Part shown: in pieces, positions 128 through 9,659 of the stretch
Layout of the letters: each line of letters opens with the position of its first letter
Position numbering within the stretch: position 1 is the first letter of the stretch
Origin: Blautia sp.
GTDB taxonomy: Bacteria; Bacillota; Clostridia; Lachnospirales; Lachnospiraceae
Assembly: GCA_017515945.1 (NCBI GenBank)
Contig: JAFWDX010000277.1
Coordinates: 1 to 13,306 of the forward strand
Direction of reading: 5' to 3'
Length of the DNA: 13,306 bases
Position numbers and translations under genes: made by a program
Notes under the pieces: generated by a model
The model's database searches: none
Told to the model about the DNA's origin: nothing
The model's input: the letters and a program-made list of their open reading frames with translations, nothing else

Positions 128-161
128 GTAACTGTGAAGGAGCTTGTGACTGAACAGTTAC
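128..161 (+). mobile_element. 34-bp mini-element, GTAAC/GTTAC ends (copy 0)
   Basis: The ends form an 8-bp inverted repeat, GTAACTGT (128-135) and ACAGTTAC (154-161). The unit is identical, base for base, to the last 34 bp of the long element at 3849-4014. It is flanked by AAGGAAAG (120-127) and AGGGAAAG (162-169), a 7/8 direct repeat that reads as an aged target-site duplication. It sits between the dehydrogenase stop and the first shell gene. The right flanking repeat overlaps the Shine-Dalgarno sequence of that gene (AAAGGAG, 166-172), so insertion left the ribosome binding site usable. Confidence 0.8.
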
Positions 162-180
162 AGGGAAAGGAGCATAAGCC

Positions 181-495
181 ATGGCTGACGCAGTCGGAAT
201 TCTCGAAGTTTATGGTCTTTCGACAGCCTTTGTGGCGGCGGATGCCGGCTGCAAGGCGGCGAATGTACGGCTGGAGGTCTTTGACAAGAACAAACCGGCC
301 AACGCAGATTCTCTGCCGGTTCCGCTTCTTGTGTGCATCAAGTTCCGCGGCAGCGTATCGGATGTGACCGCCGCGGTAGAAGCCGGCATCAAGGTCGCTG
401 AGAGCATGACAGGAGTCGTGCAGCACCATGTGATCCCCAGCCCTGAGCCGGGAACCCGCAGAATGCTCAAGATCAGTGCACTGGACAAGAGATAA
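181..495 (+). CDS. BMC-domain shell protein with expanded pore loop
   Basis: This 104-residue single BMC-domain protein should form hexameric tiles in the microcompartment shell. The start [18 protein letters not shown] (residues 6-23) and the closing HHVIPSP (82-88) are standard BMC landmarks. It differs from the PduA/EutM-like neighbours in the loop that lines the central pore. Between L31 and R56 there are about nine more residues than in the protein at 536-817, including D-K-N-K-P-A-N-A-D around residues 35-43 and a proline pair at 46 and 48. The loop therefore lacks the usual G-S-G pore turn, so this tile should have a different pore. The ATG at 181 follows AAAGGAG at 166-172. I recall similar loop-expanded paralogues in clostridial microcompartment loci, but no specific substrate can be read from the sequence. 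Confidence 0.92.
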
Positions 496-535
496 ACGAT
501 ATCCTATATATTTTTTAATCAGGAGGATCCCCACT

Positions 536-817
536 ATGGCAATGGAAGCATTAGGAATGGTAGAAACCAGAGGACTTACTGCGGCGATCGAAGCTGCGGA
601 TGCGATGACAAAGGCCGCAGAGGTCACGCTGATCGGTACGGAAAAGATCGGATCCGGTCTGGTGACCGTGATGGTACGCGGAGATGTCGGCGCTGTCAAA
701 GCAGCCGTGGAAAGCGGCAGCGCAGCTGCATCCAGACTTGGTGAACTGGTAGCCACTCATGTGATCCCGCGTCCCCACAATGATGTTGAAAAGATCCTTC
801 CCGGCCTTCCTAAATAA
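536..817 (+). CDS. BMC-H shell protein, PduA/EutM-like (paralogue 1)
   Basis: At 93 residues this is a canonical hexameric BMC shell protein. It has the opening [19 protein letters not shown] (residues 4-22), the pore turn K37-I-G-S-G41 and the tail [17 protein letters not shown]. Ser40 falls at the position of the PduA pore serine, a residue associated with a polar pore for small metabolites in that family. The ATG at 536 is preceded by AGGAGG at 521-526. An ATG further upstream at 476 would add a low-quality N-terminus outside the domain, so 536 is preferred. The protein is nearly a duplicate of the one at 1222-1500, differing at about 13 of 92 positions. It is probably one of the bulk facet proteins of the shell. 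Confidence 0.95.
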
Positions 818-840
818 GCCGGAGAGCAGGGAGTTTGCTC

Positions 841-1140
841 ATGAATAAGGCATACGGATTTCTGGAGATCACAGGTGTCGTGGCAGCGATCGACGCGCTG
901 GATATCATGTGCAAGACGGCAGGCGTCGAGATCGCGTCCTGGGAAAGAAAGCTGGGCGGACGGTTGGTGACGATCATCATACAGGGTGATGTGGCCGCCG
1001 TGAACGAGGCTATCCAGGCCGCACAGGAAAAGTGCATCAAAAAACCTGTGAACTGTGCCGTCATTCCACGGCCGCATGAGGAGATCGTCCGGCTGGTGGA
1101 GCTCAGCGCGAGCCGCTGGCGAAAAAATCGCAATGAATGA
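841..1140 (+). CDS. BMC-H shell protein with Gly-Arg pore turn and basic tail
   Basis: This is a 99-residue single BMC-domain protein. It opens with AYGFLEITGVVAAIDALD (residues 4-21) and carries the conserved C-A-V-I-P-R-P-H segment near residues 72-79. The pore turn reads K37-L-G-G-R41, so an arginine replaces the small residue seen in the neighbouring PduA-like tiles. The C-terminus is extended and basic (SRWRKNRNE). Both features suggest a minor shell tile with a positively charged pore or a tail that contacts cargo or nucleic acid (inference). The ATG at 841 has AGGGAG at 828-833, seven bases away. A TTG at 835 is in frame but too close to that site. The gene follows the previous stop by 23 bp and is clearly in the same operon. 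Confidence 0.92.
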   Translation: MNKAYGFLEITGVVAAIDALDIMCKTAGVEIASWERKLGGRLVTIIIQGDVAAVNEAIQAAQEKCIKKPVNCAVIPRPHEEIVRLVELSASRWRKNRNE

Positions 1141-1155
1141 ATCAGAAGCATACTT

Positions 1156-1177
1156 GCGAGAACAATTATATTCTCGC
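1156..1177 (+). other. Intra-operon hairpin between shell genes
   Basis: GCGAGAA (1156-1162) and TTCTCGC (1171-1177) form a perfect 7-bp stem with an eight-base AT-rich loop. No T-run follows, so it is not an intrinsic terminator. It lies in the 81-bp gap between two shell genes and 45 bp ahead of the strongly conserved shell gene at 1222. A role in mRNA processing or stability is possible but unproven. Confidence 0.4.
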
Positions 1178-1221
1178 GCGATCCAATACACGGAAAATGA
1201 AATATGACCGGAGGTAAAGAT

Positions 1222-1500
1222 ATGACACAGGAAGCATTGGGAATGATTGAAACCAGAGGACTCACCGCAGCGATCGAAGCCGCGGACCAGATGTGCAAGG
1301 CAGCCAATGTGGTGCTGATCGGCACAGAAAAGATCGGTTCCGGTCTTGTCACCGTGATGGTGAGAGGCGATGTAGGCGCTGTCAAGTCCGCCGTAGAGGC
1401 CGGCAGCGCAGCCGCATCCAGACTGGGCGAGCTGATCGCGACGCATGTGATCCCGCGTCCTCACAACGATGTGGAGCAGATCCTGCCAAAGCTTAACTGA
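1222..1500 (+). CDS. BMC-H shell protein, PduA/EutM-like (paralogue 2)
   Basis: This 92-residue hexameric shell protein is very close to the one at 536-817. The region from [10 protein letters not shown] through the pore turn K-I-G-S-G and on to [13 protein letters not shown] is almost unchanged, with small swaps such as Ala23 to Gln, Thr25 to Cys, Glu29 to Asn and Thr31 to Val. The ATG at 1222 is preceded by GGAGG at 1210-1214. An ATG at 1204 would place that site inside the coding region and add residues outside the domain. The two copies are separated by a third, divergent shell gene, so they are not a simple tandem duplication. Keeping two near-identical tiles may raise shell protein dosage or allow mixed facets (inference). 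Confidence 0.95.
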
Positions 1501-1542
1501 TCAGGAAAGGCCTGAAAAGGCAGGCAGAAAGCAGGTGAGAGC

Positions 1543-2187
1543 TTGGAGACGAACAATATAGAAATGATTACCCGCATGGTGATCCAGGCCATGGAAAAAG
1601 CAAAGCCTGATGAAGGCGGCTTTATGGTGCCGATCGGAGTTTCGGCGAGGCATATCCATCTCACGCAGGAGCATGTGGAAGCACTTTTTGGACCCGGTTA
1701 CCAGCTGACAAAGAAAAAAGATCTCATGGGAGGACAGTTTGCTTCCAATGAGACAGTCACTATAGTGGGCTTGAAGCTGCGCGCCATTGAAAATGTTCGG
1801 ATCCTTGGTCCGGTGCGCAAGGTTTCCCAGGTGGAGGTTTCCGCTACGGATGCCATCCGTCTGGGCATGAAGGTACCCGTAAGGGAATCCGGCAATGTGG
1901 CCGGCAGCGCGCCGATCGCCGTTGTCGGACCTAAGGGTGCCATTTACCTGAAGGAAGGCTGTATCGTCGCGATGCGTCATATCCATATGTCTCCCGAGGA
2001 CGCAGAAGCCGCAGGCGTTAAGGACGGCGATATCGTTTCTGTCCGTGCGGACAATGAGCGGGGTACGATCTTTAATCACGTGAAAATTCGTGTGGATAAG
2101 AGCTTCACGCTGGAAATGCATATCGATACGGATGAAGCCAACGCCGCGCAGATTTCGACAGGCAATACAGTCACGATCATCAGATAA
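1543..2187 (+). CDS. pduL: PduL-type phosphate acyltransferase (phosphotransacylase)
   Basis: PduL converts propanoyl-CoA or a similar acyl-CoA plus phosphate to acyl-phosphate and free CoA. It recycles CoA inside the microcompartment and leads to ATP formation by a kinase. The 214-residue protein carries the two zinc-binding histidine motifs of the family: S-A-R-H37-I-H39-L and M-R-H146-I-H148-M-S-P-E-D, the latter repeating the former in the second barrel. A further family-type histidine is at 193. Residues 1-20 form a short amphipathic helix (N-N-I-E-M-I-T-R-M-V-I-Q-A-M) separated by a charged linker from the catalytic domain, typical of an encapsulation peptide. No ATG lies upstream in frame; TTG at 1543 with AGGTGA at 1533-1538 is the best start and keeps the targeting helix whole. 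The next candidate, ATG 1564, would cut it. Confidence 0.95.
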   Translation: METNNIEMITRMVIQAMEKAKPDEGGFMVPIGVSARHIHLTQEHVEALFGPGYQLTKKKDLMGGQFASNETVTIVGLKLRAIENVRILGPVRKVSQVEVSATDAIRLGMKVPVRESGNVAGSAPIAVVGPKGAIYLKEGCIVAMRHIHMSPEDAEAAGVKDGDIVSVRADNERGTIFNHVKIRVDKSFTLEMHIDTDEANAAQISTGNTVTIIR

Positions 2188-2208
2188 ACCTGATCACAGG
2201 AGAACCCT

Positions 2209-2475
2209 ATGATAGTTGGAAAAGTAGTGGGAAGCATTGTTTCCACCAGGAAAAGCGAAAAGCTGATCGGTAATAAATTTATGATCATTGAGCCTGTGGA
2301 GCCGATGAAAGGGGATGGGTGTCAGATCGTCGCCATCGATATTATCGGTGCAGGCATTGGCGAGTATGTGCTCATCGCACTCGGGAGTGCTGCACGGATC
2401 GGCTGCGGGATGGAAGATGCGCCTGTCGATGCCGCGATCGTGGGGATCATCGATGATGGTACGGGATGGGAGTGA
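2209..2475 (+). CDS. pduN: EutN/PduN/CcmL-type pentameric vertex protein
   Basis: This 88-residue protein belongs to the BMC-P family, whose pentamers cap the vertices of the polyhedral shell. The start MIVGKVVGSIVSTRKSEKL is the usual EutN/CcmL opening. The middle has V-A-I-D-I-I-G-A-G-I-G-E-Y-V-L-I, with the family's G-A-G followed by G-E-x-V-L. The end P-V-D-A-A-I-V-G-I-I-D is also standard. AGGAG at 2198-2202 lies six bases before the ATG. The gene follows pduL by 21 bp and its stop is four bases from the pduS start, so the three are probably translationally linked. It appears to be the only vertex protein in the window. Confidence 0.94.
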   Translation: MIVGKVVGSIVSTRKSEKLIGNKFMIIEPVEPMKGDGCQIVAIDIIGAGIGEYVLIALGSAARIGCGMEDAPVDAAIVGIIDDGTGWE

Positions 2476-2479
2476 CGCG

Positions 2480-3814
2480 ATGGAAATCAGAGAATTGCAG
2501 AAGATCATCCAGGAAGGCGGAGTCGTCGGCGCCGGAGGCGCCGGCTTTCCCACATATGCCAAGCTGAATGAAAATGCGCGGACCATCCTGCTGAACTGTG
2601 CGGAGTGTGAACCCCTGCTCACATTGCACCAACAGCTTTTGGAGCGTCACGCTTATGATATCATGAAAACCTTTTTCATGATGGCAGGGACAGTTGGCGC
2701 CAAAGAGGCAGTGATCGGGATCAAAAAATCCTATACCCGCACGGTTCAGGCCCTCAGCACGTATATCGGAGAGTTTCCCGGAATGAGGATCCATCTGCTG
2801 GATGAGGTGTATCCGATGGGAGATGAAGTAGTGCTGATCTATGAGGCGACCGGACGTGTTGTCCGTCCGGGAGGCCTGCCCATAGAACAGGGTGTCGCTG
2901 TGTTTAATGTGGAGACAGTCTACAATATATACCGGGCAGTCAGCGCCGGACAGCCGGTGACGGATAAGTATGTATCTGTCGTGGCGGAAGTATCCAGGCC
3001 GGTTACCGTGAAAGTGCCCCTGGGATGTACCCTTGAAGAGACTGTAGCTGCCGCCGGTTCTGTGACTGTGAAGGATCCGGTCTATTTTGTGGGTGGTCCC
3101 ATGATGGGGCGGATCGGCAGTCCTTTTGAGCCTGTGACCAAAACCACCAATGCGATCCTGGTCCTGCCCTCCGATCATCCGATCGTGGTAAAAAAGAATA
3201 GAACACCGTCAATCGACCTGAAACGCGCCGCCTCGATCTGCTGTCAGTGCAATACCTGTACGGATCTGTGCCCGAGACACAATCTTGGTCATCCGATCGA
3301 CCCGGCGAGGTTTATGCGGGCGGCTTCAAATCAGGATTTCAGAGATCTCAATCCCTGCCTGAATGCGGCCTTCTGCAGCTCCTGCGGAGTGTGTGAGATG
3401 TTTTCCTGTCCACAAGGCCTGGCGCCCAGGTCTTTGCTGGCGGATATGAAGGCCGGACTCCGCAAGGCCGGGGTGCGCCCTCCCGCTGATGTACAGCCAA
3501 AGGCTGTCGGGCCGGAGAGAGCCTTCCGCAAAGTGCCGGAAGACAGGCTGATGGCCCGCCTCGGTCTGACAAAATATGACAGGCCGGCTCCGATCGACGA
3601 GGCAATTTTGCCTGTGGATCAGGTGAGGATACCCCTCAGTCAGCATATCGGAGCTCCGGCAGAGCCGGTTGTAAAGGTCGGTGAGACAGTAACCAAAGGA
3701 CAGTTGATCGCGCAGCCCGGCAAAGGACTGAGCGTCGGGATCCATGCATCGATAGACGGGACGGTGACAGAGGTCACGGACCGCTTTGTCACGATCATGG
3801 GCAGGAATACATGA
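2480..3814 (+). CDS. pduS: PduS-like RnfC-type Fe-S flavoprotein (corrinoid/electron-transfer reductase)
   Basis: PduS proteins are flavin and Fe-S enzymes related to RnfC and NuoF. In the Pdu system PduS reduces cobalamin, and in other microcompartments it is thought to dispose of electrons. The 444-residue protein starts with a Rnf/Nuo-like N-terminus including V-V-G-A-G-G-A-G-F-P-T (residues 15-25), the glycine-rich nucleotide/FMN region. A middle SLBB-like region is followed by two ferredoxin-type cysteine sets: C254/C255-x-C257-x-x-C260-x-x-x-C264-P and C299-x-x-C302-x-x-C305-x(4)-C310-P. The C-terminus (about 385-440) is a lipoyl-like barrel: I-G-A-P-A-E-P-V-V-K-V-G-E-T-V-x-K-G. The ATG at 2480 is favoured because the in-frame upstream extension only overlaps the vertex gene. 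The next gene encodes its usual partner, PduT. Confidence 0.93.
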   Translation: MEIRELQKIIQEGGVVGAGGAGFPTYAKLNENARTILLNCAECEPLLTLHQQLLERHAYDIMKTFFMMAGTVGAKEAVIGIKKSYTRTVQALSTYIGEFPGMRIHLLDEVYPMGDEVVLIYEATGRVVRPGGLPIEQGVAVFNVETVYNIYRAVSAGQPVTDKYVSVVAEVSRPVTVKVPLGCTLEETVAAAGSVTVKDPVYFVGGPMMGRIGSPFEPVTKTTNAILVLPSDHPIVVKKNRTPSIDLKRAASICCQCNTCTDLCPRHNLGHPIDPARFMRAASNQDFRDLNPCLNAAFCSSCGVCEMFSCPQGLAPRSLLADMKAGLRKAGVRPPADVQPKAVGPERAFRKVPEDRLMARLGLTKYDRPAPIDEAILPVDQVRIPLSQHIGAPAEPVVKVGETVTKGQLIAQPGKGLSVGIHASIDGTVTEVTDRFVTIMGRNT

Positions 3815-3820
3815 GCGGTG

Positions 3821-3848
3821 GTGACTGTGAAGAAAGTAGTGACTGAAC
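3821..3848 (+). mobile_element. Left part of an older 34-bp mini-element split by a nested insertion
   Basis: These 28 bases, rejoined with AGACAC at 4023-4028, give a 34-bp sequence that aligns over its whole length with the mini-element at 128-161. It differs at several positions, for example GTGACTGT in place of GTAACTGT. The 166-bp element at 3849-4014 is inserted between the two parts and duplicated GACTGAAC (3841-3848 and 4015-4022). This older copy is more diverged and its own flanks (3813-3820 and 4029-4036) match at only about half of the positions. It begins seven bases after the pduS stop. Confidence 0.7.
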
Positions 3849-4014
3849 GTAACTGTTCAGTCAGCACCTCGCATTTACTGCGACACCGCAGGCGTGCCTT
3901 GGCAGGTGCGTGGAGCAAAAGATGAACAGCCAAGGCCAGGCGCACTTCCAATGCGACGAAAGGAGCCTGCGCCTGGCCTCGTAACTGTGAAGGAGCTTGT
4001 GACTGAACAGTTAC
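3849..4014 (+). mobile_element. 166-bp MITE-like element (copy 1), perfect 8-bp target duplication
   Basis: The ends are a perfect 15-bp inverted repeat: GTAACTGTTCAGTCA at 3849-3863 and its complement at 4000-4014. The flanks GACTGAAC (3841-3848) and GACTGAAC (4015-4022) are identical, which marks an insertion. Inside, in order, are a 64-bp left module (3849-3912), a 15-bp linker specific to this copy with AAAAG in the middle (3913-3927), and a 53-bp hairpin module (3928-3980). That module has the 12-bp stem AGGCCAGGCGCA (3933-3944) with its complement at 3968-3979. A 34-bp mini-element forms the right end (3981-4014). GCCTTGGC (3895-3902) can also pair with GCCAAGGC (3929-3936), which puts the linker in a loop. 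There is no open reading frame of note and no transposase. It fills the gap between pduS and pduT. Confidence 0.85.
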
Positions 4015-4092
4015 GACTGAACAGACACCAATGATGTATACCCGCGAGCATGATCATATGCAAAAAGAAACGTGGGAAAGGGCAGTAAACAT

Positions 4093-4641
4093 ATGAGTAA
4101 AGCAATCGGGATGATTGAATTCAAAACCACAGCCACCGGCGTGGCAGCGGCGGATCTTATGGTTAAGACCGCCGATGTGGAGATCATTGAAGCCCAGACA
4201 GTGTGTCCAGGTAAATATATAGCCCTTGTCCGCGGGAGCCTGAGCGCGGTACGTGCCTCTGTGGACGCGGCGGTAGCCGCCTACGAGGATAAATGTATTG
4301 ACAGTTTTGTCCTGGGCAACCCTCATGAGTCCATTTTCCCTGCCATCTACGGTACTTCCAGTGTGGAAGGCGTCAGCGCCCTGGGAATCCTTGAGACCTA
4401 TGACGCGGCTTCGATCATAGAAGCGGCGGATCAGGCGGCAAAGACAGCAGTAGTCGACCTGATCGAGCTGCGGATCGCGAAGGGGATGTGCGGGAAGTCC
4501 TATATGATGCTGACCGGAGAGGTCGCAGCCGTGGAGGCGGCGATCGAACGGGCGGCGCTTGTCACTGCTGATAAAGGCATGTATCTGGATTCCCAGGTTA
4601 TCCCGCATCCGGATGAGAAAATGATCACCCGGATCCTGTAA
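4093..4641 (+). CDS. pduT: PduT-like two-domain BMC-T shell protein with pore cysteine
   Basis: This 182-residue protein has two tandem BMC domains (about 1-90 and 92-182) and should form pseudohexameric trimers. Domain 1 opens AIGMIEFKTTATGVAAADLM; domain 2 opens ALGILETYDAASIIEAADQA and ends S-Q-V-I-P-H-P-D. In PduT of Salmonella, Cys38 of the first domain holds a [4Fe-4S] cluster at the trimer pore. Here a cysteine also falls at residue 38 (A-Q-T-V-C38-P-G-K) when the ATG at 4093 is used, and the length is within two residues of that protein. The cluster may pass electrons across the shell to or from PduS, encoded just upstream (inference from family knowledge). The start is preceded by GAAAGGG at 4074-4080, a rather distant ribosome binding site. 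A GTG at 4072 is in frame but would add seven residues before the domain. Confidence 0.93.
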   Translation: MSKAIGMIEFKTTATGVAAADLMVKTADVEIIEAQTVCPGKYIALVRGSLSAVRASVDAAVAAYEDKCIDSFVLGNPHESIFPAIYGTSSVEGVSALGILETYDAASIIEAADQAAKTAVVDLIELRIAKGMCGKSYMMLTGEVAAVEAAIERAALVTADKGMYLDSQVIPHPDEKMITRIL

Positions 4642-4656
4642 ATACAGGAGGCCTGA

Positions 4657-5697
4657 ATGTATACGAAAGAAGGCGACCGCGGAATCACCGCGCTTGCGCG
4701 GTCGAAAAATGTATCCAAATCCGATGACCGCCTTGTATTGATCGGAACCATTGATGAACTTGTAAGTCAGCTGGGAATGATAAAAGCCTTGCTGCATGAT
4801 GAGGACACCACAGGGATTCTGGACCGGATCCAGCGTACTCTTTTGCTGGCGGCGGAGGGCATTTCGGACCCATACATGCGCGAATACCGGATCGGAGATG
4901 AACATACAAGGATGCTGGAGACGTGTATTGACAGGCTGCAGCTTCCCGATAAGGATTCGACCCGGCCGCTCCCGGGTGGATCTGTTTTGTCGGCAGAGAT
5001 CGATCTGGCGAGGGCAGTATGCCGCAGGGCTGAGCGCGCGCTTTCTCTGGTAAGCGTCCGCTACGGAGCGGATAATGGCGCAAAAAAATATTTAAACCGG
5101 CTGTCGGATTATCTATATGCATTAGCCAGAAGCCGGGATCGTGCCGCTGCAGAGGCAGCCGGCCGGTCTGGATTACAGGATGGAGGGGCGGATACTGTCC
5201 GCTCTCTGTCCCCGGCTCCGGGACACGATCAGACAGAGATGATCCGGGATGCCGTCGTCAGGGAAATCCTGGCTCTGTCAGGACAGATTGAGGCGATCAC
5301 GCTCAGGACTGCAAAACAGCTTATCGAAATAATGGAGGAGGAAGCCACCCGACGCGGCATGGCAGCTGTCTTAGCCGTATGCAGCCCCCAGGGGAATCCT
5401 GTAGCGGTCCATGTTATGGACGGTGCTTACCTGGTAAGCTATGAAGCTGCAGTTAAAAAAGCGTATACATCCGCTGCTGTCCGAATGTCCACACTGGAGC
5501 TTTCGCACCTGGCACAGCCAGGTCAGACTTTTTACGGAGTAGAGCATACAGATCCCCGGATCGTGATCCTGGGCGGAGGGATTCCGCTCATGTACAAAGG
5601 AAAGATCATCGGCGGGCTGGGCGTGAGCGGAGGAACATCCCAGGAGGATCACTCCCTGGCCGAATACGGTCAGTCGATCGTGGCGAAACTGCTGTGA
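4657..5697 (+). CDS. pduO: PduO-like cob(I)alamin adenosyltransferase fused to GlcG/DUF336-type domain
   Basis: The 346-residue protein has the two-domain layout of PduO. Residues 1-165 are an ATP:corrinoid adenosyltransferase, which makes coenzyme B12 from cob(I)alamin and ATP. The visible landmarks are Y2-T-K-E-G-D-R-G-I-T (ATP-binding N-terminus), G30-T-I-D-E-L, L105-P-G-G, R119-A-V-C-R-R-A-E-R127 and L146-N-R-L-S-D-Y-L-Y-A-L-A-R158. The Asn that usually follows D-E-L is Val here, a small departure. After a linker (about 160-195) comes a GlcG/HbpS-like domain (about 200-346) ending G-L-G-V-S-G-G-T-S-Q-E-D-H, a fold known in that family to bind haem or corrinoid. The gene follows pduT by 15 bp with an AGGAGG site. 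It indicates that a B12-dependent step is served by this operon, or was in its ancestor. Confidence 0.93.
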   Translation: MYTKEGDRGITALARSKNVSKSDDRLVLIGTIDELVSQLGMIKALLHDEDTTGILDRIQRTLLLAAEGISDPYMREYRIGDEHTRMLETCIDRLQLPDKDSTRPLPGGSVLSAEIDLARAVCRRAERALSLVSVRYGADNGAKKYLNRLSDYLYALARSRDRAAAEAAGRSGLQDGGADTVRSLSPAPGHDQTEMIRDAVVREILALSGQIEAITLRTAKQLIEIMEEEATRRGMAAVLAVCSPQGNPVAVHVMDGAYLVSYEAAVKKAYTSAAVRMSTLELSHLAQPGQTFYGVEHTDPRIVILGGGIPLMYKGKIIGGLGVSGGTSQEDHSLAEYGQSIVAKLL

Positions 5698-5703
5698 GTA
5701 TTT

Positions 5704-5869
5704 GTAACTGTTCAGTCAGCACCTCGCATTTACTGCGACACCGCAGGCGTGCCTTGGCAGGTGCGTGTGATAAAAGTCCAATAGCCAAGGCCAGGCGCAC
5801 TTCCAATGCGACGAAAGGAGCCTGCGCCTGGCCTCGTAACTGTGAAGGAGCTTGCGACTGAACAGTTAC
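5704..5869 (+). mobile_element. 166-bp MITE-like element (copy 2), inserted at the pduO stop
   Basis: This copy has the same length and module order as the one at 3849-4014. The two are identical except inside the 15-bp linker (here 5768-5782, again with a central AAAAG) and at one base near the right end (C for T at 5855). It is flanked by perfect 8-bp direct repeats GAGTATTT at 5696-5703 and 5870-5877. The left repeat overlaps the last two bases of the pduO stop codon (5695-5697), so the insertion hit the end of the gene without changing the protein. High identity between copies 1 and 2 points to recent activity or conversion. Confidence 0.86.
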
Positions 5870-5881
5870 GAGTATTTATAT

Positions 5882-5908
5882 GTAAGGAGCTTGTGACTGA
5901 ACAGGTAC
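5882..5908 (+). mobile_element. Remnant of a mini-element
   Basis: These 27 bp match the mini-element at 128-161 with a 7-bp internal deletion near the left end (GTAA joins directly to GGAGCTTGTGACTGAACAG) and one change in the right end (GGTAC for GTTAC). No flanking direct repeat is visible. It lies between the target duplication of copy 2 and the terminator stem and is probably an old, decayed insertion. Confidence 0.55.
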
Positions 5909-5910
5909 GT

Positions 5911-5949
5911 ACAGTGGATGGTCTGTCGGACCGTCCACTGTCTTTTTTT
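5911..5949 (+). terminator. Strong intrinsic terminator of the microcompartment operon
   Basis: ACAGTGGATGGTC (5911-5923) pairs with GACCGTCCACTGT (5929-5941) as a 13-bp stem with one T-G wobble and a five-base loop. One C and seven T residues (5943-5949) follow. This is a textbook Rho-independent terminator. It lies 214 bp after the pduO stop because the 166-bp element and a remnant intervene; before those insertions it would have been much closer. Confidence 0.93.
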
Positions 5950-5960
5950 ATACTCGTGTT

Positions 5961-6039
5961 GTTGGGCTTTTGTTCCACGCACCTGCCAAGGCACGCCTGC
6001 GGTGTCGCGGTAAATGCGAGGTGCTGACTAAACAGTTAC
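5961..6039 (-). mobile_element. 79-bp half-length element, inverted (copy 3)
   Basis: Read on the minus strand this is the 64-bp left module of the 166-bp elements with two base changes, followed by a 15-bp linker with a central AAAAG that ends in CCCAAC. The hairpin and mini-element modules are absent. It is flanked by perfect 8-bp direct repeats CTCGTGTT at 5953-5960 and 6040-6047, so it appears to have moved as a unit. Its + strand left end is GTTGGGC, not the usual GTAACTG, so only one end has the family terminus. Together with 5704-5767 it forms an inverted pair of 64 bp (62 identical) around the terminator. Confidence 0.75.
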
Positions 6040-6073
6040 CTCGTGTTACTTAATACATGGAAAATGTGTCATT

Positions 6074-6814
6074 ATGAACAGAAATCAAATGAAACTGATC
6101 GCAGTTGCAGCCATGGTGCTGGATCATATCGCGGTAATATTTCTCACCCAGGAAACGGCATTGTGGGTTGCTTTCAGGACATTGGGCAGGATCACAGCTC
6201 CGGTAATGTGTTTTTTTCTGAGTGAAGGATTCATACATACTTCCTCTTCCAGAAAATATCTTTACAGGCTTGGTTTTTTTGCCCTGATCTCCCAGGTTCC
6301 CTATGCCCTGGCTTTTCGTGAAGTCATGGAGTGGTGGCATCCAAATGTTATGTACACGCTGTTCATCAGCCTCCTTTGCCTGCACGTGCATAAGTTCAGA
6401 AAGAGTCAGGATGCGGTCCTGATCCTTGCAGGACTTTTTGCTTTGACCATCCTGGCTGACTGGGGAATCATCGGACCTTTATATGTGATGACTTTTTATG
6501 CGGCGGGAACCATCAAGCCGCTGATCAGAATGCCTGGATTTATGTCACGCACGACTCCTCTCAGGTTCAGACAGGTTTATTCCTTTACAATTGTGAGCAT
6601 GATCATGCTGGCCGCGGAGTATCTTTCCGCCCACAAAACGGGACTGCCTATTTACACGCAGCTGTATGAATGCGGGATTTTTCTTTTTATCCCTCTGCTG
6701 CTGGCATATGACGGCAAACCCGGCTCCCGCGGACCTGTGGCAAAATGGGGTTTTTATGTCTTTTATCCGCTTCACCTGTTCATTCTTGCCGGAATCAGAA
6801 TGGCAGTCCATTAA
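6074..6814 (+). CDS. TraX-family integral membrane protein
   Basis: The 246-residue protein is strongly hydrophobic, with about seven or eight likely membrane segments, and resembles the TraX family. Landmarks are the opening K-L-I-A-V-A-A-M-V-L-D-H-I-A (7-20), then L-G-R-I-T-A-P-V-M-C-F-F-L-S-E-G-F-I-H-T (37-56), the Y-L-Y-R-L-G-F-F-A-L-I-S-Q-V-P-Y segment and N-V-M-Y-T-L-F. TraX of F plasmids acetylates pilin; chromosomal homologues in Firmicutes are of unknown role and may act as membrane acyltransferases. There are no conjugation genes nearby, so a pilin role is not supported. The ATG at 6074 has only a weak site (TGGAAA, 6058-6063). The gene stands alone after the operon terminator, 27 bp beyond the target duplication of copy 3. 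Confidence 0.8.
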   Translation: MNRNQMKLIAVAAMVLDHIAVIFLTQETALWVAFRTLGRITAPVMCFFLSEGFIHTSSSRKYLYRLGFFALISQVPYALAFREVMEWWHPNVMYTLFISLLCLHVHKFRKSQDAVLILAGLFALTILADWGIIGPLYVMTFYAAGTIKPLIRMPGFMSRTTPLRFRQVYSFTIVSMIMLAAEYLSAHKTGLPIYTQLYECGIFLFIPLLLAYDGKPGSRGPVAKWGFYVFYPLHLFILAGIRMAVH

Positions 6815-6876
6815 TCGTAGTCTGAATTACTTCTTGCAAAAATCTCTGTTTTCCTATACACTTTAATGGACAGGAA

Positions 6877-6976
6877 GTAACTGTTCAATCAGCGCCTCGC
6901 ATTTACTGCGACACCGCAGGCGTGCCTTGGCAGGTGCGTGAGACAAAAGCTGAGGAGCTTGTGACTGAACAGTTAC
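6877..6976 (+). mobile_element. 100-bp element with internal deletion (copy 4)
   Basis: This copy has the 64-bp left module (6877-6940, with changes such as TTCAATC for TTCAGTC), 12 bp of a copy-specific linker with AAAAG (6941-6952), then the last 24 bp of the mini-element (6953-6976). The 53-bp hairpin module and the first ten bases of the mini-element are missing. Perfect 8-bp direct repeats GACAGGAA flank it at 6869-6876 and 6977-6984, so the short form itself seems to have been mobilised. It lies in the 225-bp gap between the TraX-like gene and the glucosaminidase gene; nothing else is recognisable in that gap. Confidence 0.83.
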
Positions 6977-7039
6977 GACAGGAATACGCTGTGACAAAAT
7001 GCGAACAAGATTCAGTCAAGTGCAGGAAAAGGAGATAAT

Positions 7040-8155
7040 ATGTACGATTTAAAGAGCATATCAAATCGATCCCTGACAGAAAAAATCCGTTTTTTTGTAC
7101 ACCTGTTCACACTTGTGATGACTGTCTGTGTGATACCACAGGCAGTCCCTGTCCGGGCCGCCGCTGGTTTATCCGGGACAGAGGCTGTCGGAGCTTCGGC
7201 CCGATGGGTGCAGAACGACAAAGGATACCGATACAGACTTGCAGACAGATCCTATGTAAAAAATGCCTTTTACAAGATCGGAAAACATACCTATTATTTT
7301 GATGCCAAAGGCTACCGGGTCACAGGCTGGCAAAAGATCGGAAAGAAGCTGTATTATTTTACAACGACCGGGAAGATGCGCACCGGCTGGAATAAGGTTA
7401 AAGGGAAAATATTCTGCTTCACTTCCAAAGGAGCTCTGCGCACAGGCTGGTACAAGCCTGCGGACGGCAAAGTCTTTTATCTGCACAAGTCAGGTAAGGC
7501 TGGCATACGGGGGGAATTGTACACAGGATGGAACATCATCTCCGATGTGACTTACTATTTCCGCAAGGATGGAGAACTTGGAGAAATAGGCAACATGGTG
7601 AAAAGCGGCTGGGAAAAGATCGGGGATACAGAGTACTATTTTAACTCAGACGGGATCTGGACCACGACACGCATGACAAATCAGGAATTCATAGAAACCG
7701 TAGGAAATATGGCCGTATATGACATGCGCAAAACCGGTGTCCTGGCTTCCCTTACGATCGCGCAGGCCATACTGGAAAGCGGCTGGGGCCGATCGGAACT
7801 GGCATTGGAGGGCAATAACCTGTTCGGTATGAAAGCCAGCCTTTCCGGAGACAACTGGGGATCCAGATGGAAAGGCAGAGTGCATTACCTTAGAGGAACA
7901 CCATACAGGGCCTATGATTCGATCCAGGAAAGTGTGGACGATCATTCCCTTTATCTGCTGGGAGCCACGATCGACGGTAAAAAGCTGCGCTACGAGGGAA
8001 TCGAAAAAGCCACTACGACCCGCCAGGCGGCAAAAATCCTGATCGATGGAGGATACACATCAGGTTACCAGTATGTGGAAGATCTGGTGAGTCTGGCAAA
8101 AAAATACAATCTTACAGCGTATGACAAAAAGGCCAGAGAACCGCTGGCCGGATGA
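7040..8155 (+). CDS. Secreted N-acetylglucosaminidase with cell-wall-binding repeats
   Basis: The 371-residue protein is a predicted exported peptidoglycan hydrolase. Residues 12-42 form a signal peptide with a basic start, hydrophobic core and A-x-A-type end (V-R-A-A-A). From about 73 to 206 there are six degenerate wall-binding repeats of the K-I-G-x-x-x-Y-Y-F-x-x-x-G-x-x-x-T-G-W type, for example 98-117 and 191-206. The C-terminal domain (about 211-360) is of the FlgJ/Atl glucosaminidase type. It contains A-Q-A-I-L-E246-S-G-W-G-R-S-E-L with the likely catalytic glutamate, then N-N-L-F-G-M-K and Y-R-A-Y-D-S-I-Q-E-S-V-D-D-H. It should cleave N-acetylglucosaminyl bonds during wall turnover or cell separation. 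An AAGGAG site precedes the ATG. It is probably monocistronic. The ligand of the repeats (choline or other wall polymer) cannot be told from sequence. Confidence 0.92.
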   Translation: MYDLKSISNRSLTEKIRFFVHLFTLVMTVCVIPQAVPVRAAAGLSGTEAVGASARWVQNDKGYRYRLADRSYVKNAFYKIGKHTYYFDAKGYRVTGWQKIGKKLYYFTTTGKMRTGWNKVKGKIFCFTSKGALRTGWYKPADGKVFYLHKSGKAGIRGELYTGWNIISDVTYYFRKDGELGEIGNMVKSGWEKIGDTEYYFNSDGIWTTTRMTNQEFIETVGNMAVYDMRKTGVLASLTIAQAILESGWGRSELALEGNNLFGMKASLSGDNWGSRWKGRVHYLRGTPYRAYDSIQESVDDHSLYLLGATIDGKKLRYEGIEKATTTRQAAKILIDGGYTSGYQYVEDLVSLAKKYNLTAYDKKAREPLAG

Positions 8156-8167
8156 AGCATATCGGTA

Positions 8168-8189
8168 TCAGACATGATTTTTAGTCTGA
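8168..8189 (+). terminator. Possible weak terminator of the glucosaminidase gene
   Basis: TCAGAC (8168-8173) and GTCTGA (8184-8189) form a 6-bp stem with a ten-base T-rich loop, 12 bp after the glucosaminidase stop. No T-run follows. It may act with a factor or only stabilise the 3' end. Confidence 0.3.
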
Positions 8190-8215
8190 ATAATTAATAA
8201 ACAAGTCATAAAAAA

Positions 8216-8242
8216 TTCATATTTTCTGCTTATAATTATAAT
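8216..8242 (+). promoter_or_regulatory. Candidate sigma-A-type promoter for the BMP transporter
   Basis: The 154-bp gap before the binding-protein gene is distinctly AT-rich. Two TATAAT hexamers lie end to end at 8231-8236 and 8237-8242. TTCATA at 8216-8221 is a poor -35 match, 15 bp before the second hexamer. Transcription would start near 8250, just at the palindrome at 8252-8271. Confidence 0.5.
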
Positions 8243-8251
8243 CTGTACTTT

Positions 8252-8271
8252 TGGCGATGTATACGTCGCCA
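8252..8271 (+). promoter_or_regulatory. 20-bp near-perfect palindrome, possible operator
   Basis: TGGCGATGTATACGTCGCCA is a palindrome centred on GTATAC, with only the seventh pair unmatched as DNA (T opposite G, a wobble in RNA). It begins about ten bases after the TATAAT and lies 38 bp before the ATG. The position fits a repressor site at the transcription start or a 5'-leader hairpin. No regulator gene is in the window. Confidence 0.5.
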
Positions 8272-8309
8272 TTTATGATCCAATTTATTTTATCCGGGAG
8301 GACAACCAC

Positions 8310-9500
8310 ATGAAAAAAATGTTTGCTCCGCTTCTTGCCCTGACTCTCTGCCTGGGTATGGTTCCTGCTGTGCCGGCCATGGCAGCCGATACATCAGATG
8401 TCAAAGTCGGCTTCATCTTCCTTCATGACGAAAATTCCACCTACGACCTCAACTTTATCAATGCGGCTAAAGAAGCCTGCGAACAGCTCGGCGCCGAGTA
8501 TGTATTCAAGACCGGCATCGATGAGTCCGAGGCCTGCTACGAGGCGGCTGCGGATCTGGCTGACAGCGGCTGTGATATCGTCTTTGCCGACAGCTTCGGC
8601 CATGAGGACTATATGATCCAGGCTGCCATGGAGTATCCTGAAGTACAGTTCTGTCATGCCACCGGTACCAAGGCGCATACAGAGGGACTGGCCAACTATC
8701 ACAACGCCTTTGCATCCATCTATGAAGGACGCTACCTTGGCGGTATTGCCGCAGGCATGAAGCTCAACCAGCTCATCGAGGAGGGCAAGATCACAGAGGA
8801 TCAGGCCAAACTCGGATATGTCGGCGCCTTCACTTATGCAGAGGTTATCTCCGGATATACATCCTTCTTCCTCGGCGCCCGTTCTGTCTGCCCGACCGCT
8901 ACGATGGAGGTTACCTTCACAGGTTCCTGGTATGATCCTGCGCTGGAGCAGGAGGGAGCTGTAAAGCTCATCGGCAACAACTGTGTGGTACTTTCCGAAC
9001 ATGCGGATTCCATGGGCGCTCCTTCAGAGTGTGAAAAAGCCGGTGTTCCCTTCGTATTCTATAACGGTTCCGCTGCGGATGCCTGCCCGAATACCTATAT
9101 CGTCGCATCCAGGATCAACTGGGCACCTTACTTTGAGTTCATCATCAACGCTGTCGCAAACGGCGAGGAGATCCCTGCCGACTGGACAGGCACGATCGCT
9201 ACGGATTCCGTCCAGCTCGTCGGCATGAATGATGCCGCTGCCGCTCCCGGTACCACAGAGGCGATCGAGGAAGCCAAGGCAAAACTCGAGTCCGGCGAAC
9301 TCCATGTGTTTGATACGGCCACATTTACAGTAGGCGATGCCGCACTTGAGACCTATATGGCTGATGTGGATACGGACGAGGCTTATGAGGGCGATACTGA
9401 GGCAGTTTCTGACGGATATTTCCATGAGTCCGAGTATCGTTCCGCTCCTTATTTTGATATCCAGATCGATGGCATTACCCTGCTCGATACTGCCTTCTGA
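8310..9500 (+). CDS. BMP-family ABC substrate-binding protein
   Basis: The 396-residue protein is the extracellular binding component of a BMP (basic membrane protein, PnrA/NupA-like) ABC importer. Members of that family bind purine nucleosides or related compounds. Residues 1-25 are a signal peptide ending A-M-A followed by A-D-T. The mature part starts V-K-V-G-F-I-F-L-H-D-E (31-41), with a strand and glycine-containing turn typical of type I periplasmic folds, and continues with E-G-R-Y-L-G-G-I-A-A-G near residue 138 and G-Y-V-G-A-F. No lipobox cysteine follows the signal; the only early cysteine, C14, is inside the hydrophobic core. That is unusual for a Gram-positive binding protein. GGGAGG precedes the ATG. 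The ATPase and two permeases follow downstream. The real ligand is not evident from sequence. Confidence 0.88.
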   Translation: MKKMFAPLLALTLCLGMVPAVPAMAADTSDVKVGFIFLHDENSTYDLNFINAAKEACEQLGAEYVFKTGIDESEACYEAAADLADSGCDIVFADSFGHEDYMIQAAMEYPEVQFCHATGTKAHTEGLANYHNAFASIYEGRYLGGIAAGMKLNQLIEEGKITEDQAKLGYVGAFTYAEVISGYTSFFLGARSVCPTATMEVTFTGSWYDPALEQEGAVKLIGNNCVVLSEHADSMGAPSECEKAGVPFVFYNGSAADACPNTYIVASRINWAPYFEFIINAVANGEEIPADWTGTIATDSVQLVGMNDAAAAPGTTEAIEEAKAKLESGELHVFDTATFTVGDAALETYMADVDTDEAYEGDTEAVSDGYFHESEYRSAPYFDIQIDGITLLDTAF

Positions 9501-9529
9501 GCGGATTTCAATCTGACTGAATAATCATA

Positions 9530-9565
9530 AAGAGGATCCTGGTTTCACACAGCTGGGATCCTCTT
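9530..9565 (+). terminator. Hairpin after the binding-protein gene, partial terminator
   Basis: AAGAGGATCC (9530-9539) and GGATCCTCTT (9556-9565) make a perfect 10-bp stem with a 16-base loop. The downstream tract is ATTCG, not a clean T-run, so termination may be incomplete. Such hairpins commonly let the binding protein be made in excess over the ATPase and permeases of the same transporter. Confidence 0.65.
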
Positions 9566-9594
9566 ATTCGCTATATTGTGTATTACTCCAAAAG

Positions 9595-9626
9595 GTAACT
9601 GTGAAGAAACAGTGACTGACAGTTAC
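9595..9626 (+). mobile_element. 32-bp mini-element (copy 5)
   Basis: GTAACTGT (9595-9602) and ACAGTTAC (9619-9626) form the 8-bp inverted ends. The interior is GAAGAAACAGTGACTG, which lacks the AAGGAG seen in the other mini-elements. The flanks TCCAAAAG (9587-9594) and TCCGAGAG (9627-9634) agree at 6 of 8 positions, fitting an old target duplication. It lies between the attenuating hairpin and the ATPase start. Confidence 0.65.
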
Positions 9627-9659
9627 TCCGAGAGTATATTTATGAGGAGGACTTACATT

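Follow-up and report, generated by a model that had tools for sequence, protein, structure and literature searches.

The window analysed here, the whole 13,306-bp stretch of contig JAFWDX010000277.1 from a Blautia sp. assembly (GCA_017515945.1), carries a set of bacterial microcompartment (BMC) genes and a family of very short elements with GTAAC ends and flanking 8-bp direct repeats. The BMC genes occupy positions 181-5697 and include those for a phosphate propanoyltransferase, an RnfC-like protein and a cobalamin adenosyltransferase. Elements lie in the gap at 3815-4092 and downstream of the last BMC gene, and a glucosaminidase with choline-binding-type repeats (7040-8155) also adjoins one. 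Two forms are distinguished below: the "solo", a 34-bp element standing alone, and the "long", an element of ~145-187 bp with the same 34-mer as its right end. A preliminary description made from the letters alone had listed six copies, each of which was recovered at its position together with all flanking repeats, four of them perfect, one matching at 7/8 and one at 6/8 positions (Table 1). Shared ends had been ascribed to all six, but the copy at 5961-6039 has only one family end, its left end at 6039, and the opposite end is an internal cryptic end (GTTGGGC); the perfect duplication around such a copy suggests loose end recognition. Beyond these six, the window contained two further degenerate 34-bp copies, one of which includes the target GACTGAAC of the long at 3849-4014, so that this long is nested within an older solo. 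No Rfam family matched at the gathering score.

Table 1. Elements of the GTAAC-ended family in the window, with their 8-bp flanking repeats.
Element	Position	Strand	Flanking repeats and remarks
34-bp solo GTAACTGTGAAGGAGCTTGTGACTGAACAGTTAC	128..161	+	120-127 / 162-169, AAGGAAAG/AGGGAAAG, 7/8
Older degenerate 34-bp solo	3821-3848 plus 4023-4028 (span 3821..4028)	+	Split by the long at 3849-4014; repeat family D4
166-bp long	3849..4014	+	3841-3848 / 4015-4022, GACTGAAC, perfect
166-bp long	5704..5869	+	5696-5703 / 5870-5877, GAGTATTT, perfect
Left-truncated 34-bp solo	5882..5908	+	No duplication seen
79-bp one-ended copy	5961..6039	-	5953-5960 / 6040-6047, CTCGTGTT, perfect
100-bp element without second hairpin	6877..6976	+	6869-6876 / 6977-6984, GACAGGAA, perfect
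32-bp solo GTAACTGTGAAGAAACAGTGACTGACAGTTAC	9595..9626	+	9587-9594 / 9627-9634, TCCAAAAG/TCCGAGAG, degenerate, 6/8

Copy number, target duplications and anatomy

The host genome is a 2.63-Mb draft assembly of 518 contigs with a completeness of 79%, and its contig 117 is the window. When one mismatch was allowed, the end motif GTGACTGAACAGTTAC occurred 469 times in this draft, compared with 0 for the reversed control. The motif was found 0-15 times per genome in 59 congeners among 98 genomes searched, and the exact 15-mer GTAACTGTTCAGTCA, counted across 397 genomes of the family, gave 363 hits in the host, the only others being 5 hits spread over four genomes. The anatomy was read in 93 host stretches (616,294 bp in total), made up of the window, a first set of 20 contigs with hits, every 15th contig (20 in all), 40 more contigs with hits and 12 stretches from the motif search; 73 of the 93 were therefore the window or picked for having hits, while the every-15th contigs were picked regardless of hits. 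This sample contained 191 of the 469 ends; scoring gave 69 solos and 73 longs, and both ends were present in 51 of the longs. The density of about one copy per 2 kb reported earlier is right for the window and does not extend beyond it: extrapolation from the 142 scored elements gives ~350 in the 2.63 Mb, and the 20 unselected contigs carried 9 ends over 90 kb, compared with 82 over 242 kb in the window together with the first 20 hit-bearing contigs. Likewise, the statement that all copies are intergenic agrees with the window as read but not with the sample, where open reading frames (ORFs) of at least 150 amino acids (crude ORFs, not gene calls) covered 84% of the DNA and contained 46 of the 142 element midpoints.

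Target duplications were counted at up to one mismatch over 8 bp and compared with shuffled flanks (500 shuffles). They surrounded 34 of the 51 longs with both ends (shuffled mean 0.81, maximum 5) and 26 of the 69 solos (shuffled mean 0.65, maximum 4), and the identity of the flanks was limited to exactly 8 positions with a sharp drop outside. Pairing of GTAACTGT...ACAGTTAC ends in the window and 20 contigs (241,692 bp) gave 34 duplications with 0-1 mismatches among 125 pairs, inner-with-outer end pairings included, against 0.86 by flank shuffling. Copies without duplications, which the preliminary description had named as an observation that would speak against transposition, do occur, at 17 of the 51 longs and at 43 of the 69 solos, which on average are the older class, but duplications around the rest lie far above the shuffled expectation.

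A comparison with an empty site, as suggested earlier, was made at one site, the spacer that holds the copy at 3849-4014. It measures 308 bp in the host, between the RnfC-like gene and a gene with two BMC domains, which we take to be pduS and pduT. In 46 congeners both flanks were placed on one contig at 68-83% identity, and the spacer between the aligned flanks was 24-85 bp in 43 of them; the remaining three (G032, G034, G040) had shorter alignments and correspondingly short spacers. None of the 46 has room for the 166-bp copy, and no family element was seen in four spacers read directly, the longest included; these spacers are too diverged to display a single 8-mer. For the solos, locus L291 was rejected as a clean comparison: it abuts a multi-copy sequence, by its look an insertion sequence, present as seven near-identical stretches in G052. 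Because the 8-bp duplications are found genome-wide, one insertion is nested in another and the congener spacer is too short for the insert, it is established that the family spread by transposition and not as RNA-structure repeats, as had been claimed.

The solo (GTAACTGTGAAGGAGCTTGTGACTGAACAGTTAC) is an imperfect palindrome, both edges of which read as transposon ends. The long runs from GTAACTGTTCAGTCAG through hairpin modules and GGCCTC or a similar sequence to the same 34-mer, so that GTAACTGT is present twice, at the left tip and at the start of the right 34-mer. Of the 34 longs with duplications, 12 were 166 bp, nine 145 bp and four 187 bp in size, lengths that differ by 21-bp modules in the sequences compared. 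Other sizes also carried duplications (25 and 55 bp at 7/8; 61, 79, 85 and 100 bp perfect), and the whole span of 25-233 bp is too short to encode a transposase. Terminal inverted repeats (TIRs), a target duplication of constant size and the lack of an internal transposase are traits of miniature inverted-repeat transposable elements (MITEs), and the family shows all three, its duplication being 8 bp. Some loci were composite. Three diverged 34-bp solos stood in tandem with a 42-bp period at L185:690-920, spaced by the related 8-bp words TGACACGG, GGACACGG and GGATACGG. A 145-bp long and a 34-bp solo shared one target at L058:2960-3200 (GAATGACG-long-GAATGACG-solo-AAATGACG, one 8-mer in three copies). 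The long at L200:7056 was inserted in another hairpin repeat, uninterrupted copies of which were found at 78-83% identity (L003, L061). At L207:5300-5508, a 34-bp unit with its first 8 bases replaced (TTTTTGAC) nevertheless had a perfect 8-bp duplication, ATGAAAAG. Further hairpin repeats of the host, of the AGGCTCTGAAT...AGAGCCTCT type and similar, were noticed at L003:2277-2324, L061:5669-5719 and L186:1573-1652.

A related 27-bp version with the same solo and long architecture was found across the genus. The 27-mer GTAACTGTGARGGTACTGAACAGTTAC was searched with up to three mismatches in 64 genomes of the genus, 32 of which contained it, in up to 34 copies. No control had a match, and the host, which is among the 64, also lacks it. 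Among 65 distinct 27-mers in the loci analysed (not all copies), nine were solos flanked by duplications, two of the nine with identical flanks (shuffled expectation 0.3 on average and 2 at most), and 29 had a left end like GTAACTATTCAG together with a duplication, their sizes being 42-233 bp and in 15 cases 142-144 bp. Other tiny forms had perfect duplications (a 34-mer in G027 and a 27-bp one in G003), G039 contained a 30-bp unit flanked by perfect 8-mers, and one of the 29-30-bp palindromes of G032 had a 7/8 duplication. Three congeneric species have a segment of ~3.3 kb in common at ~100% identity (L289 in G011:C158, L338 in G016:C62, L339 in G055:C13), which looks like a recent transfer; it carries two 27-bp solos, and its one 170-bp difference is located in other DNA.

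The mobilising enzyme

Ends starting with GTAA and 8-bp target duplications are features of the IS66 family that the host elements display, and mobilisation in trans by an IS66 transposase had been put forward in the preliminary description. IS66 transposases were identified by PF03050 and IS256-type ones by PF00872, the only two families searched for in the host. The host's GTDB genus contains IS66-family elements that are flanked by exact 8-bp duplications and have the ends GTAACAGTTCAG (L107, L108) and GTAACTATTCAG (L114), and the GTAACAGTTCAG end with an exact 8-bp duplication was also found in a named Lachnospiraceae record (L233). The host end GTAACTGTTCAG agrees with each of these two sequences at 11 of 12 bases, and longs in other species of the genus themselves start with GTAACTATTCAG. 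Looser GTTAC..TTCA ends with exact 8-bp duplications were found in the genus (L102-L104, L110, L111) and in the wider family (L145, L153, L158), and another IS66 end type, GTAAGCGTC, at three loci of two genomes (L072, L079, L095); in most remaining IS66 loci scanned, no end pair with a duplication was resolved. All six proteins scanned (L102, L107, L108, L110, L111 and the upstream part of L114) passed the PF03050 cut-off. L107, L108, L114 and L233, from Blautia and other Lachnospiraceae, resemble the host family in their ends and exact duplications, but they are 1.7-1.9 kb long with one main ORF, a transposase gene (interrupted in L114). The host assembly yielded no such element, and none found elsewhere had exactly the host's end. 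The likeness of the ends and duplications makes trans-mobilisation by an IS66-type enzyme a well-supported hypothesis, and the same holds for the view that the elements are IS66-type MITEs that multiplied in a burst in one lineage.

Several results weigh against this assignment. The six IS66-type proteins do not reach the IS66 cut-off of NCBIfam. The sole PF03050 gene in the host assembly (L031) shows no such ends in the 3 kb examined, and no relatives of L107 or L108 were found in this 79%-complete assembly. No insertion sequence with exact GTAACTGTTCAGTCA ends was found, the five hits of this 15-mer outside the host falling in 4 of 396 other family genomes with none paired nearby. Hence the element with the same ends predicted earlier has counterparts with similar ends in related genomes, but none in the host assembly and none with the exact end. 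A search for an autonomous copy in the window, 20 host contigs and 20 relatives' loci, a scan that left out L031 and earlier loci, found an exact duplication in none of 3188 end pairs 320-4500 bp apart. The host's own IS66 gene was rejected as the partner for want of matching ends, and since it is the only one in the assembly, the partner is presumably unassembled, lost or elsewhere. Carriage by viruses was also rejected, viral contigs containing no exact match of a 19-mer or of the 27-mer.

Altogether, the elements are probably non-autonomous transposons (MITEs) of an IS66-type transposase, with the solo most likely inserting as a unit. Such a transposase would recognise ends of the type GTAAC(T/A)(G/A)TTCAG and cut the target 8 bp apart, which would leave the 8-bp duplication around each insertion. 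In the long (mainly 145, 166 or 187 bp, with its hairpin modules) the left end is simple and the 34-bp imperfect palindrome forms the right one; the solo, that palindrome alone, would most likely be inserted by an enzyme taking its two edges as two ends. The transposase would act in trans from a source element unassembled or lost in this strain, and the solos would move instead of being made in place. Bacterial MITEs, as treated in a review (PMC10969869), are similar in having inverted repeats, a duplication, no transposase, high copy number and IS-type ends, whereas the host family has two size classes with a common right end that also occurs alone at 27-34 bp. The word IS66 is absent from the text of that review, and among the titles listed in a search of open-licence literature there was no bacterial solo-end transposon, Blautia MITE or IS66-derived MITE.

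Solos as mobile units or deletion products

We lean towards the view that the 27-34-bp palindromic end is a complete transposon, that an IS66-type transposase would cut both its edges and insert it with an 8-bp duplication, and that longs would consist of this unit with a left arm added. The evidence comes from the target spectrum. In the host, the left copy of the duplication ended with TC in 7 of 26 solos versus 0 of 34 longs (p=0.0017), six of these seven having TC in both copies, and the right copy started with GA in 5 of 26 solos versus 18 of 34 longs (p=0.015); a permutation test of the GA/TC asymmetry, either copy counted, gave p=0.0006 for a motif that had been spotted in the host data before testing there. 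The other species formed an independent but small test set, in which the left copy ended with TC in 4 of 8 solos versus 2 of 29 longs (p=0.013, one of the two identical-flank solos dropped), and GA did not distinguish solos (4/8) from longs (17/29). The pooled values were 11/34 solos versus 2/63 longs for TC on the left (p=0.0001) and 9/34 versus 35/63 for GA on the right (p=0.0098). Among copies with at most one mismatch, counting either copy of the duplication, GA was found in 3/17 solos versus 19/32 longs (p=0.007) and TC in 4/17 versus 1/32 (p=0.043). The natural reading is that each palindrome edge prefers an adjacent GA, which is seen on the right only in a long and on either side of a solo.

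The strongest alternative, which we regard as the less probable though a serious one, is that the longs are IS66-type MITEs and the 27- and 34-bp solos are immobile, left by recombination between the two copies of GTAACTGT (GTAACT elsewhere) with the original duplication kept, like solo TIRs or solo long terminal repeats. One deletion between these copies yields exactly a solo, and other internally shortened sizes (25, 55, 61, 79, 85 and 100 bp) exist. A recombination origin was also suggested, as a speculation of the authors, for the solo TIRs of Paramecium, where internal eliminated sequences are remnants of transposons, at least 26 bp long and with their first size peak at 26-28 bp, some of them palindromic solo TIRs; these differ from the host family in being eukaryotic, TA-bounded and excised by a domesticated piggyBac transposase (PMC3464196). 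The points that tell against mobile solos are as follows. In the host, the divergence from the core averaged 2.42 mismatches for solos versus 0.99 for longs, and the solo share climbed with divergence from 24% (0 mismatches) to 79% (at least 4), as a deletion origin predicts; the 43 of 69 solos without a recognisable duplication belong here too. No empty orthologous or paralogous site was found for any solo: in a search for paralogous empty sites by joined flanks (58 queries), the only hits that spanned the join for solos were the occupied locus itself or a tandem array at that locus, and in the orthologous 3.3-kb segment of G011, G016 and G055 the solos were present in all three. In addition, a 34-bp duplex is too stiff for looping its ends together, so that a mechanism is missing. 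Against a deletion origin stands the fact that a deletion cannot alter the flanking 8-mers and would keep the long's duplication, while the solo and long spectra differ; the difference is seen among copies with at most one mismatch too, and that in TC recurs in other species. Movement of the solos by themselves is therefore the more likely of the two readings.

It is improbable that the mover is a non-IS66 transposase whose GTAAC-type ends and 8-bp stagger arose by chance. No matching IS66 element was found in the host assembly, where PF03050 and PF00872 alone were searched, as such an enzyme would allow, but congeneric IS66-family elements agree with the host end at 11 of its first 12 bases and have the same 8-bp duplication, and an IS256-type transposase was rejected as the mover, none having been found in the host. 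Spread without transposition, as repetitive extragenic palindromic (REP) or bacterial interspersed mosaic element (BIME)-like or RNA-structure repeats, can practically be dismissed, since for all their palindromy, position mostly outside long ORFs, high copy number and the strong folding of the 166-mer, the elements have exact 8-bp duplications, a nested insertion and no Rfam family at the gathering score. REP sequences and the related REPINs are not known to have a fixed target duplication, and cyanobacterial small dispersed repeats are not known to show an 8-bp duplication or any connection with IS66. The host elements are not GTAG- or CGTC-tagged palindromes free of a fixed duplication. REPs and REPINs (PMC3733652, PMC3116915) resemble the solos as 20-40-bp palindromic repeats of high copy number, but have GTAG or CGTC tags and REP-associated tyrosine transposases (RAYTs), whereas the host family has GTAAC ends and an 8-bp duplication. 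The cyanobacterial repeats (Elhai 2008) are cited in PMC3116915 and PMC2884548.

If solos do move as units, those of 27-34 bp would rank with the smallest transposons known from bacteria, far below the length that DNA-looping models of end pairing permit, and the minimal requirements of this transposase would be directly testable with oligonucleotides. The 8-bp duplication together with a GA...TC target would give a signature by which to seek mobile elements that ordinary searches miss because of their small size. The family would also illustrate how units this short can multiply to hundreds of copies within a single gut lineage and stay rare in its congeners.

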